NCBI GenBank assembly: GCA_020881835.1 | Contig: CP052876.1 | Span: 434,001-498,000 of the forward strand | DNA: 64,000 nucleotides | Direction: 5' to 3' | Source: Kineosporiaceae bacterium SCSIO 59966 | GTDB lineage: Bacteria; Actinomycetota; Actinomycetes; Actinomycetales; SCSIO-59966 | Shown: piece by piece, positions 25,983 to 29,529 of the stretch | How the letters are laid out: each line of letters begins with the position of its first letter | How positions within the stretch are numbered: position 1 is the first letter of the stretch | Notes under the pieces: generated by a model | The model's input: only the letters and a program-made list of their open reading frames with translations | Databases searched by the model: none | What the model was told of the DNA's origin: nothing | Translations under genes and position numbers: made by a program

Positions 25983-27023
25983 GTGCTCGTGAGCTGCCCT
26001 CCGCTGTCCGAGCTGACGACCCTGCGCGTCGGGGGGCCTGCCCGCTGCTGCGTCGAGGCCCGCGACGCCGACCAGCTCGTCGCGGCGGTGCGGGACGCGG
26101 ACGACGCGGGGGAGCCGGTGCTGCTCGTGGCCGGCGGGTCCAACCTGCTCGTCGACGACACCGGCTTCGCCGGCACCGCGGTCCTCGTCCGCAGCGTGGG
26201 CCTGGAGGTGCTGTCGGCCGACGCCTGCTCCGGCGCGACCGTGCGGGTGGCCGCCGGGCACTCCTGGGACGACGTCGTCGCCCGGGCGGTCGCCGAGGGC
26301 TGGTCGGGGGTGGAGGCGCTGTCGGGGATCCCCGGGTCCACCGGGGCGACCCCGGTGCAGAACGTCGGCGCCTACGGCCAGGAGGTCGCTGGCACCGTCG
26401 CCACCGTGCGCACGTGGGACCGCGTCGAGCGGCGGGTCCGGACACTCGCCGCTGCCGACTGCGGGTTCGGCTACCGCTGGTCGCGGTTCAAGGCTGAGCC
26501 GGACCGCTGGGTCGTCCTCGAGGTGACGTTCCAGCTGCCGCTGGGTGACCTGTCGGCTCCGGTCCGGTACGCGGAGCTGGCCCGCACGCTGGGGGTCGAG
26601 GTGGGGCAGCGGGCGCCGCTCGCCGACGTCCGGGCCGCAGTGCTCGGGCTGCGCGCCGGCAAGGGGATGCTGCTCGACCCGGCCGACCCTGACACGTGCA
26701 GCGCCGGGTCGTTCTTCACGAACCCCGTCCTGGACGCCGCGGACGCCGCGCGGCTGCCGGCCGCGGCCCCCCGCTTTCCGGTAGGGGACGGGCGGGTCAA
26801 GACGAGCGCCGCCTGGCTGATCGAGCACGCCGGGTTCGGTCGCGGTCACGGCCTGCCCGGGCCGGCGTCGCTGTCCACCAAGCACGCCCTGGCCCTGACC
26901 AACCGGGGCGGTGCACGGGCGGCGGACCTGCTCGCCCTGGCCCGGGAGGTCCGCGATGGCGTCCGGGCCCGCTTCGGCGTCGAGCTCGTCACCGAGCCCG
27001 TCCTCGTCGGCTGCTCCCTCTAA
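25983..27023 (+). CDS. murB: UDP-N-acetylenolpyruvoylglucosamine reductase MurB
   Basis: 346 residues, GTG 25983 (another in-frame GTG at 25989). MurB is the FAD enzyme of the second committed step of peptidoglycan precursor synthesis. FAD-binding motifs are ELTTLRVGGPARCCVEARD, VLLVAGGSNLLVDDTGFAG and VEALSGIPGSTGATPVQNVG. The catalytic serine is in CSAGSFFTNPVLD (about residue 243), and the C-terminal domain has VKTSAAWLIEHAGFGRGHGL. TAGCCT at 25974-25979 may be a -10 element. A 30-base tandem repeat starts 7 bases after the stop. Confidence 0.96.
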   Translation: MLVSCPPLSELTTLRVGGPARCCVEARDADQLVAAVRDADDAGEPVLLVAGGSNLLVDDTGFAGTAVLVRSVGLEVLSADACSGATVRVAAGHSWDDVVARAVAEGWSGVEALSGIPGSTGATPVQNVGAYGQEVAGTVATVRTWDRVERRVRTLAAADCGFGYRWSRFKAEPDRWVVLEVTFQLPLGDLSAPVRYAELARTLGVEVGQRAPLADVRAAVLGLRAGKGMLLDPADPDTCSAGSFFTNPVLDAADAARLPAAAPRFPVGDGRVKTSAAWLIEHAGFGRGHGLPGPASLSTKHALALTNRGGARAADLLALAREVRDGVRARFGVELVTEPVLVGCSL

Positions 27024-27030
27024 CCCCCTC

Positions 27031-27120
27031 CCCGTGATCATGCAATCCCGCCACCCTCCCCCCGTGATCATGCAATCCCGCCACCCTCCCCCCGTGATCA
27101 TGCAATCCCGCCACCCTCCC
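27031..27120 (+). repeat. 30-bp perfect tandem repeat, three copies, after murB
   Basis: Three identical, directly abutting 30-base units lie at 27031-27060, 27061-27090 and 27091-27120. Each contains CGTGATCATGCAATCCCGCC followed by ACCCTCCC. There are no spacers, so it is not a CRISPR array. An inverted partial copy lies at 27208-27231. Confidence 0.97.
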
Positions 27121-27207
27121 GCCGCTACAAAATGCTGTGCTTCTCGGGCTTCTTGCGGCGTGTCGCGCCAACAACCCAGCATCCTGCGGGCGAGCGGTGC
27201 AGGCCTG

Positions 27208-27231
27208 GGGTGGCGGGATTGCATGATCACG
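27208..27231 (-). repeat. Inverted 24-bp copy of the murB-downstream repeat core
   Basis: Bases 27208-27231 are the exact reverse complement of 24 bases of each 30-base unit (27033-27056 and its two copies). With those copies it can form long stems around an 87-base loop (27121-27207). The loop is less GC-rich than its surroundings and contains its own short inverted pair (ATGCTG/CAGCAT). The whole 27024-27246 gap separates convergent murB and add, so it may act as a bidirectional terminator or be a mobile repeat. Confidence 0.85.
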
Positions 27232-27246
27232 AACAGGGGGAGGTGA

Positions 27247-28299
27247 TCAGGAGGGGTTCGTGCCGGCGAGCCACGCCTCGATCCCACGCAGCAACGAGGC
27301 GCGGACGTCGTCCGGGGCCCTGCTGGCCTCGACCGACGCGCGCGCCAGCCCGGCCAGCGCCGCGTCGTCGAGGCCGTGCACCTCGCGGGCGGCCCGGTAC
27401 TGGTCCACCAGCCGGTGGCCGAACAGCAGCGGGTCGTCCGCGCCGAGCGCCACCCGCGCCCCGGCGTCCAGCAGGCGCGCCAGCGGCACGCTCGCGGCGT
27501 CGGGGTAGACGCCGAGGGCGACGTTGCTGCTCGGGCACACCTCGAGGGCGATGCCGGCGTCGACGACCCGTCGCAGCACCGCCGGGTCCTCGACCGAGCG
27601 GACGCCGTGCCCCAGCCGGTCCGGGGCGAGGGTGTCGAGGGTGACCGCGACGTGGTCGGCGCCGAGCAGCTCCCCGCTGTGCGGCACACGGGCCAGTCCC
27701 GCGCGGCGGGCGATCGCGAACGCGGGGGCGAAGTCCGCGGTCCAGCCGCGCCGCTCGTCGTTGCTGAGGCCGAACCCGACGACGTCCGCGGGCCCGTCAC
27801 CGGCGTGCCGGGCGGCCAGCCGGGCCAGGGTCCGGGCGTCGAGGGGATGGCGCACCCGGCTCGCCGCGATGACGACGGCGACCCTGGTGCCGGTCACCGC
27901 GGTCGCCTCCCGGGCGGCGTCCCGGACGATCTCCAGCGCCGGGGTGATGCCCCCGACGAACGGGGCGTAGGAGGTGGGGTCGATCTGCAGCTCGAGCCAG
28001 CCGGAGCCCTCGGTGGCGTCGTCCTGGGCGGCCTCCAGGACGATCCGGCGCATGTCGTCGGCGTCCCGGACCACCGCCCGCGCCGCGTCGTAGAGCCGCT
28101 GGAACCGGAACCAGCCGCGCTCGTCCGGGGAGAGGCGGACGTCGCGGTGCTCCCGCAGGGCCGCCGGCAGCCGGACGCCGTGCTTGTCGGCGAGGTCCTG
28201 GAGGGTCTGCGGCCGCATCGAGCCGGTGAAGTGCAGGTGCAGGTGGGCCTTCGGCAGGGCGGCCAGGTCGCGGTGCCGCTGCCCGGTCCCGAGCGCCAC
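27247..28299 (-). CDS. add: Adenosine deaminase family protein
   Basis: 350 residues, GTG 28299 (minus strand), 3 bases after the aminotransferase stop. The metal-dependent deaminase signatures are all visible: HLH ligands in KAHLHLHFTGS (His21, His23), ARVPHSGELL (His and Glu), RLGHGVRSV (His), and ALGADDPLLFGHRL (metal Asp and neighbour). PSSNVALGVY is also typical. Where mammalian and enterobacterial adenosine deaminases have HLDG, this has HFTG. The residue corresponding to mouse Asp19, which binds the 5'-hydroxyl of adenosine, is thus Thr25. Substrate may be adenosine or a 5'-modified nucleoside such as aminodeoxyfutalosine; the sequence does not decide. Confidence 0.85.
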   Translation of the reverse strand: MALGTGQRHRDLAALPKAHLHLHFTGSMRPQTLQDLADKHGVRLPAALREHRDVRLSPDERGWFRFQRLYDAARAVVRDADDMRRIVLEAAQDDATEGSGWLELQIDPTSYAPFVGGITPALEIVRDAAREATAVTGTRVAVVIAASRVRHPLDARTLARLAARHAGDGPADVVGFGLSNDERRGWTADFAPAFAIARRAGLARVPHSGELLGADHVAVTLDTLAPDRLGHGVRSVEDPAVLRRVVDAGIALEVCPSSNVALGVYPDAASVPLARLLDAGARVALGADDPLLFGHRLVDQYRAAREVHGLDDAALAGLARASVEASRAPDDVRASLLRGIEAWLAGTNPS

Positions 28300-28302
28300 G
28301 GG

Positions 28303-29529
28303 TCAGGTGGCTTCGCGCAGCAGGCCGACGAGTCGGCCGACGCCCTCGGCCAGGTCCTCGTCGCCGAGCGCGTACGACAGGCGCAGCCACCCGCTGGGAC
28401 CGAACGCCTCGCCCGGCACGACCGCCACCTCGACCTCCTCGAGGACGAGCTCGGCCAGCTCGGCCGACGTCGTGGGCGTCCGGCCGCGGATGGTCCTCCC
28501 CAGGACGCCGCGGACGTCGGGGTAGACGTAGAAGGCGCCCTGCGGGGTCGGGCAGACGACGCCCGGGGCCTCGGACAGCATCGAGACGATGGTCCGCCGC
28601 CGCCGGTCGAACGCCTCGCGCATCGCGGCGACGGCGTCCAGCGGCCCCTCGAGCGCCGCCACCGCGGCACGCTGGGACACGTTCGCGACGTTCGAGGTGA
28701 GGTGGGACTGCAGGTTCGTCGCCGCCCGGACGACGTCCCGCGGGCCGATCAGCCAGCCGACCCGCCACCCGGTCATCGCGTAGGTCTTGGCCACCCCGTT
28801 GAGCACGAGGGTGCGGTCGGCGAGCTCGGGTACGAGCACCGGCATCGACGGAGCCTGGGCGCCGTCGTACAGCAGGTGCTCGTAGATCTCGTCGGTGACC
28901 ACCCAGAGCCCGTGGCGGGCCGCCCACTCGCCGATCGCCTGCACCTGCTCCGGGGGGTACACCGCCCCGGTGGGGTTGGACGGCGAGCAGAACAGCAGCA
29001 CCTTCGTGCTCGGCGTGCGGGCCGCCTCGAGGGCCTCGACGTCGACGAGGTAACCGGCCTCGGTCCCGGCCAGCACCTCCACCGGGACGCCGCCGGCCAG
29101 CCGGATCGCCTCCGGGTACGTCGTCCAGTACGGGGCCGGTAGCAGCACCTCGTCGCCGGGGTCGAGCAGCGTGGCGAACGCCTCGTAGACGGCCTGCTTG
29201 CCGCCGTTCGTCACGAGGACCTGCTCCGGTGCCACCGCGTAGCCGGAGTCCCGCTCGGTCTTGGCGACGATGGCCGCCTTGAGCTCCGGGAGCCCGCCGG
29301 CGGGGGTGTAGCGGTGGTTGACCGGGTCCGCGCACGCGGCGGCCGCGGCCTGGACGACGTAGTCGGGGGTGGGAAAGTCCGGCTCTCCCGCGCCGAAGCC
29401 GATGACCGGCCGGCCGGCTGCCTTGAGCGCCTTGGCCCGGGCGTCGACGGCCAGCGTCGCGGACTCGGCGATGGCGCCTACCCGGGCCGACACCCGGCGG
29501 GTCGTGGGGCCGTTCTGCTGCTCGCTCAC
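28303..29529 (-). CDS. aspC: PLP-dependent aspartate aminotransferase (class I/II)
   Basis: 408 residues, GTG start at 29529 on the minus strand (GGGAGGA upstream). Fold-type I aminotransferase with [20 protein letters not shown] near the N-terminus, NPTGAVY (substrate/PLP loop), [13 protein letters not shown], and the PLP lysine in [20 protein letters not shown]. The C-terminal arginine lies in [14 protein letters not shown]. It is the usual aspartate/prephenate-type enzyme found next to tRNA-Trp-secE in actinobacteria. It forms a two-gene operon with the deaminase gene downstream. Confidence 0.92.

Follow-up and report, generated by a model that had tools for sequence, protein, structure and literature searches.

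A REP-like palindromic repeat between murB and add of Kineosporiaceae bacterium SCSIO 59966, and similar palindromes with lineage-specific arms in other Actinomycetes

The murB-add intergenic region

The window, i.e., the whole 64,000-nucleotide stretch of DNA that was analyzed, covers positions 434001-498000 of the single-contig genome (3,095,448 bp) of Kineosporiaceae bacterium SCSIO 59966. The genes murB and add converge in this window, as verified by the ORF list and by family matches (for murB, NF010478 scores 490 bits, with the cut-off at 231; for add, NF006849 scores 573 bits, with the cut-off at 494). The two genes and the features of the gap between them are as follows (window positions).

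25983..27023, plus strand: murB, left flank, 3' end at 27023 (family match and ORF list)
27034..27057, plus strand: U unit 1, with the core TGATCATGCAATCCCGCC at 27035-27052
27064..27087, plus strand: U unit 2, core starting at 27065, 30 bp past unit 1, with a C-rich linker
27094..27117, plus strand: U unit 3, core starting at 27095
27124..27190, minus strand: P element, a 67-bp imperfect palindrome (59-bp core at 27128-27186) whose minus strand reads GGCGCGACACGCCG, placed by coordinates and fold (copy 461128(-) among the genomic P copies) and by relatives in other genomes
27187..27211, minus strand: 25-nt linker separating the inverted U core and the 59-bp P core; the U-P gap measure gives 26 nt, inside the usual 24-28 nt
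27208..27231, minus strand: inverted U unit, core at 27212-27229, which is the U preceding P on the minus strand
27247..28299, minus strand: add, right flank, 3' end at 27247

The first-pass annotation, which was made from the letters of the sequence, had described the tandem units and an inverted copy, and both descriptions hold: the three 30-bp units at 27031-27120 are identical, and after 87 further bases the third unit is followed by an inverted copy, exact over 24 bp (27208-27231). The U core has four matches with up to three mismatches in the window, compared with 0.01 expected in shuffled sequences. The small inverted pair noted earlier in the loop is also present; it is, however, more than a local feature, being P, a second element that is repeated genome-wide. 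Folding of the 27031-27231 transcript had been proposed as a check; the plus strand of 27024-27245 forms a strong hairpin (-109.7 kcal/mol; z = -7.0). An Rfam 15 scan of positions 26000-28400 gave no family at its gathering cut-off, which leaves a known structured RNA unsupported; a sub-threshold mir-486 match at 26033-26098 lies outside the feature.

The U unit and its arrays

Other genomic copies, whose absence the first-pass annotation had named as part of a refuting result, clearly exist. A genome-wide search for the 18-bp U core found 336 exact copies in 3.1 Mb (168 per strand) and 423 copies with up to two mismatches, while a reversed-pattern control had no match in the genome. The lists of exact copies are complete on both strands to approximately 1.6 Mb, and the copies up to that point group into 61 clusters; the remainder of the genome was sampled via P hits (20 stretches chosen for the P arm). 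The surrounding 320 kb was taken, and genes were called by codon usage with a caller trained on this genome, which was applied to other genomes as well; 85% of these bases and of the window fall in called genes. This set contains 206 U units with four or fewer mismatches (162, 27, 9, 7, and 1 with 0, 1, 2, 3, and 4 mismatches, respectively), only 4 of which lie within called genes. This distribution and the tandem clustering differ from those of DNA uptake sequences, the motif of which is frequent inside genes also.

The unit reads GTGATCATGCAATCCCGCCACCC and is followed by a linker that is unalignable between arrays, often identical inside one array, and highly variable in length (from 5 nt up). 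Tandem arrays comprise up to six half units. A CRISPR array was considered and rejected, because linkers of variable length that are C biased and often identical within an array are not regular unique spacers. On the U strand, the linkers contain approximately 57% C and 18% G, and C exceeds G (in unit orientation) in all 79 unique linkers of the first 49 stretches, whereas C and G make up 40% and 35%, respectively, of control 3' flanks. The bias persists where the array is antisense to genes (21 linkers) and where it is divergent to them (6 linkers). Because it is independent of the orientation of the neighboring gene, this strand bias is a property of the element and not of transcription. The arrays also face inward: in the fully examined half of the genome, 26 of the 64 intergenic regions that have units carry both orientations, and all plus units are located left of all minus units in each of the 26.

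The P palindrome and the U-P module

A search that allowed 15 values for the inner spacing found 52 P matches, 51 of which shared one length, namely, 67 bp with flanks. The arms in this genome are AGAATGCTGGGTT; the consensus of 87 distinct 67-bp copies reads CAGAATGCTGGGTTGNTGGCGCRACACGCCG on one side and CAGCATTCTG on the other, with a variable center. None of the 14 arm pairs has changed on both sides inside this genome. A search upstream of 86 P copies in 69 stretches (nearest U within 400 bp) identified a U in the same orientation for 72 copies, in the opposite orientation for none, and no U for 14. The U-to-P gap is 24 to 28 nt in 56 of these 72 cases, and the linker sequence is unconserved; U and P form a module with near-fixed spacing. 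Some loci are symmetric (i.e., U-P-...-P'-U'), some contain tandem U+P copies of 129 to 131 bp, and some contain P only. L105 (positions 1339230-1345560 of the genome) contains two similar copies of a two-gene segment, each bracketed by U+/P at the start and U- at the end; we read the first ORF as lipoprotein-like and the next gene as encoding a PKD-like motif.

A diverged unit, V, which is near GTGATCAGTCGAAAATCCCC, was observed at the outer ends of arrays, away from P (e.g., in L159 and L162). This variant is adjacent to P in none of 72 chains and is exclusively distal in 13 of 17 mixed chains. Among multi-unit chains (n = 48), the distal unit is more diverged in 17 and the proximal unit in 5 (p = 0.017). 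These counts are no more than suggestive of an array polarity in which older V variants lie away from P.

Related palindromes in other genomes

The exact U core was found in five stretches from four genomes of the genome contig collection; two of these stretches belong to one Actinomycetales MAG, where the U arrays are degenerate. A degenerate U pattern had 411 matches in our genome, 26 in G093, 15 in G028, and 0 to 11 in the others of a class sample of 296. In G093 and G028, which belong to one family, U-like units also form arrays, with a continuation of their own. The P core search led to G074 and to G271 and G334, which contain near-perfect palindromes of almost equal length with other arms; palindromes similar to P exist in other families. 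A covariance model built from our own P copies alone detected full-length relatives in G271/G334 and G074 (E values down to 2.6e-7 in 64 kb), had no match at E<=1 in five G093 loci or in both MAG loci, and reached only E = 0.33 in L061. A plasmid search had no match at E<=0.01, and viral contigs contained U in two stretches and the P core in four. The palindrome TGATCATGAAGTTGTTG, which we presumed to be a Micromonosporaceae palindrome and took as a lead, was not confirmed: the pattern TGATCATGMARTTNNTG occurs in 12 of 292 class genomes, with more than one match only in G074 (34 matches) and G093 (10 matches).

When 20 sequences were aligned jointly, 93.6% of the arm cells paired, compared with 31 to 42% in slid versions, and 79 cells were changed on both sides, compared with 29.6 in shuffles. 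Counted by pairs, both-sided changes affect 9 of 14, which is not above shuffles (mean, 8.6), and the same is true of the number of pair types. Because no arm pair has changed on both sides inside our own genome, the paired changes rest on three arm dialects, and they therefore represent few independent events.

With E<=1e-3 as the limit, the joint model (R2) matched at least 52 of the 345 genomes of the class, in a search that scored 15 candidates per genome and whose counts are lower bounds. In a phylum sample, 6 of 296 matched at E<=1e-4, five of the six being in the class. We read 69 sites in 26 genomes (65 loci entered this site reading; four R2 loci, L323 and L326-L328, were left out of it). 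One palindrome is 57 bp long and the others are 65 to 68 bp long, with arms that broadly follow the pattern CG.TGA..(G)TG..GTT. The apex CGACACGCC, which the site-finding model contained, is exact in 39 of the 69 sites and in 16 of the 26 genomes, and is missing from all sites read in G177, G327, G026, and G048. In the 42 of 69 sites suited to a comparison of arms (exactly 67 nt, no N, own genome left out), the 5' arm pairs at 0.92 with its own 3' arm, at 0.91 with that of another copy in the same genome, and at 0.69 with those of other genomes; the arms of the two G048 sites pair only at 0.61. The self-pairing value is partly built in, since R2 matches were selected for pairing and contain the apex; the sites in G271, G334, and G074, which were first found with apex or one-arm strings without structure, are the independent part. 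One palindrome arm in G005, TGATCATGCAATC, equals the first 13 bases of U, so that U is most simply viewed as a half-arm of this palindrome family and may descend from a palindrome arm.

Dispersal and insertions

The elements recur at unrelated sites. A flank of approximately 102 bp on the downstream side of P (flank Q) is present in 11 of 69 stretches of our genome, at sites megabases apart and with up to 94% identity to the query. Two copies in G256 are 97.5% identical over 79 bp, and their 2.4-kb surroundings share nothing else. In G271 and G334, which are members of one genus, an orthologous stretch (84.5% identical over 2,150 bp) has elements at the same two places, indicating that movement is slow. 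In these genomes (L358:1100-1880 and L285:830-1610), the centers of two neighboring palindromes look exchanged between the places. The copies in G256, together with the shared places and centers in G271 and G334, indicate that copies spread, persist for long periods, and seem to recombine with each other.

Copies of P serve as landing sites for other mobile DNA. An ISL3-family transposase (PF01610, 242 bits) lies inside P at L105:6015-7440 (approximately 1342350-1343775), with the same 8 bases on each side, and a group II intron (RF01999, RF00029) lies inside P at L145:10130-13690 (approximately 1256630-1260190). The reverse transcriptase gene of this intron appears to be interrupted by a DDE transposase gene (PF00078, PF13701). 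Y1_Tnp (PF01797) has no match at E<=1 in our genome, although 10 of 14 control genomes match (6 over the cut-off), and the RAYT route of REPs is therefore unavailable here. No target duplication was recognized by eye in the flanks of the P-only copies viewed. Two P copies in L145 lie 1.2 kb apart; inspection of the ORFs viewed there showed no transposase between them, and on the basis of this pair P is probably not an insertion sequence terminus.

Gene context

Of the 64 gaps that carry units, 23 are convergent, compared with 12 of 91 gaps without units (Fisher p = 0.0015), and 6 are divergent, compared with 36 of 91 (p = 2e-5); the control gaps without units were drawn from the same stretches and are at least 40 bp long. 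The relatives show the same preference, with 25 of 61 sites in convergent gaps compared with 7 of 47 control gaps (p = 0.005), 8 of the 69 sites being without assignable gene context. With the codon-usage caller, convergent loci number 4 of 8 in G093, 4 of 8 in G028, and 4 of 7 in G074. Single-orientation arrays in gaps between tandem genes (n = 24) are sense in 13 cases and antisense in 11, which rules out a polarity in which each unit trails a gene. This placement fits tolerance away from promoters and does not demonstrate an orientation by transcription.

Relationship to known repeats

Reported REPs come predominantly from gamma- and alphaproteobacteria, and those of the GTAG type are tied to RAYT transposases (PMC3733652); a term search of that article gave no actinobacterial names. 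REPs and REPINs share with U and P their nature as short, extragenic, high-copy palindromes whose units of opposite orientation fold together, as well as their placement past the ends of coding regions, in gaps of unidirectional and convergent genes (PMC3733652, PMC3116915, PMC1525189). Here, this corresponds to the 336 exact cores, the inverted order in all 26 two-orientation regions, and the near absence from called genes. REPs are also described as targets of insertion sequences (PMC1525189), as P is here. In length, P (59 to 67 bp) exceeds the 20 to 40 bp of REPs. The U and P repeats further differ from the REP/RAYT system in their arm dialects, in their half-unit tandem arrays of up to six, and in having no Y1 transposase in the genome and no conserved, unpaired GTAG/CGTC end tag: the tag is conserved neither in the columns of the 87 distinct P copies nor in the consensus of 17 genome representatives, and in the window copy taken by itself, GTAG adjoins one arm. 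We therefore rejected REP/RAYT membership and retain the comparison in the sense of "works like." The finding is real and exceeds its first description. It is probably a REP/MITE-like family of palindromes with lineage-specific arms that has grown into nested arrays in this genome, and we class it beside the REPs and not among them.

M. tuberculosis CDC1551 has 64 listed REPs (PMC1525189), which may overlap with the present repeats, so that we make no claim that members of the family were never noted. A different palindromic pair, CGAAA(N)19TTTCG, is described in Mycobacterium (PMC5217627). Our literature search, which covered few subscription papers, found no description of the U/P palindrome family. 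MITEs are likewise noncoding and dispersed with inverted ends; as a difference, no target duplication was recognized around the P-only copies viewed here, and no autonomous partner was identified among the ORFs viewed.

The BOX repeat is modular; in the present element, modularity takes the form of arm-like units plus a separate palindrome, and no sequence relation is claimed. BOX, RUP, and SPRITE of pneumococcus are described as small, interspersed, structured, and patchy repeats that are considered parasites, move slowly, and may affect neighboring transcripts (PMC3049150).

Origin of the locus and alternative explanations

The first-pass annotation had named four options for the locus and was correct in part. 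Its REP/MITE-like option is the best supported of the four in view of the hundreds of dispersed extragenic copies and their inverted organization; however, no RAYT-type Y1 transposase was found, and no target duplication was recognized. We consider it probable that this locus represents a single copy of a nonautonomous, REP/MITE-like palindromic element that is dispersed in the genome and is here nested and expanded into tandem arms. Its building block would be a hairpin of approximately 66 to 68 bp, the apex of which is often kept and the arms of which are lineage specific, and which may spread within a genome, where vertical inheritance can follow. Our genome would hold two arm dialects, namely, P as a complete palindrome with AGAATGCTGGGTT arms and U (TGATCATGCAATCCCGCC...) as an arm-derived half unit that has presumably been amplified in tandem and borders P, in many cases on either side of it, giving rise to nested palindromes. 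The window locus would accordingly represent a palindrome of one dialect (U...U') enclosing a palindrome of another (P). As single-stranded DNA, the hairpin may be recognized and copied by an enzyme acting in trans, and the tandem U arrays may grow by slippage beside it. Points counted against this explanation are that no mobilizing enzyme was identified, that no target duplication was recognized, that movement is slow, that the paired arm changes rest on three dialects, and that the apex is exact in only 39 of 69 sites.

A more far-reaching proposal, which we put forward tentatively, is that mobile palindromes extend across the class Actinomycetes, with an apex that is often kept and arms that switch dialect. 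They would be spread by an unrecognized non-Y1 enzyme whose specificity co-evolves with the arms, and the U arrays would be the amplified footprint of one dialect, like iterons beside a hairpin origin. Palindromes that are found across Actinomycetes, are abundant in a genome without Y1, and show paired arm changes offer a concrete system in which to seek another mobilizing enzyme and to examine whether it co-evolves with the arm dialect. The element also accounts for hundreds of intergenic repeat units in our genome, and a covariance model would make these units annotatable.

A host-maintained bidirectional terminator, in which the U and P arms fold in each transcript and stop transcription or protect the 3' ends of murB and add, is an unlikely alternative. 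The strong fold of the plus strand, the enrichment in convergent gaps in our genome and in others, and the paired arm changes between dialects are all consistent with such a role, but no T-run follows the hairpins in 26900-27400, a region with no promoter- or terminator-like sites, so that the combination of GC-rich hairpin and T-run that defines an intrinsic terminator is missing there. The nearly even sense and antisense counts in tandem contexts and the 12 convergent gaps (>=40 bp) that lack a unit in the same stretches also argue against this alternative. Moreover, arms are common to the copies of one genome (pairing of 0.91, versus 0.69 between genomes), and independent terminators need no such sharing. 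Non-U-tailed (I-shaped) terminators of actinobacteria are hairpins without a T-run at convergent 3' ends and resemble the present elements in these respects; here, however, the sequence is common to copies, the dialects are genome specific, and there is no sense bias in tandem contexts. Under the mobile-element explanation, bidirectional termination or the protection of mRNA 3' ends may be a secondary role of the hairpins, and termination as such a side effect is possible.

We regard as less likely still that the repeats form an array for a host DNA-binding protein (for nucleoid structure, supercoiling, or segregation), with selection keeping the 24-bp U and the P apex. The near-invariance of U (162 of 206 units exact) beside unalignable linkers could reflect selection on a candidate binding site, and the near-fixed U-P spacing points the same way. 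Against this, the arms differ wholesale between lineages, the U pattern is unenriched in all 26 of the other same-order genomes sampled (0 to 6 matches each), and among the matches listed for the palindrome model, one same-order genome appears, with a single weak match; such scarcity is unexpected for a core chromosome function. Finally, Rho-utilization (rut-like) arrays, in which C-rich, G-poor transcribed units precede a pause hairpin, would suit the linker composition (C above G in 79 of 79) but are very improbable, because the C bias ignores gene direction and is found in antisense and divergent linkers as well.

U-like and P-like repeats in other settings

Three loci outside our genome show U- or P-like sequences in other arrangements. 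L061:7725-7815 (Actinomadura sp. HBU206391) contains a single U-like pair in an outward-facing order. G028 has an inverted repeat at L197:1440-1624 that is GC rich and combines the P apex with different arms; in the same genome, a U-like array at L235:1500-1600 runs in frame through the linker region of a gene for 2-oxoacid dehydrogenase E2, where it encodes a repeated PGRDHA peptide.
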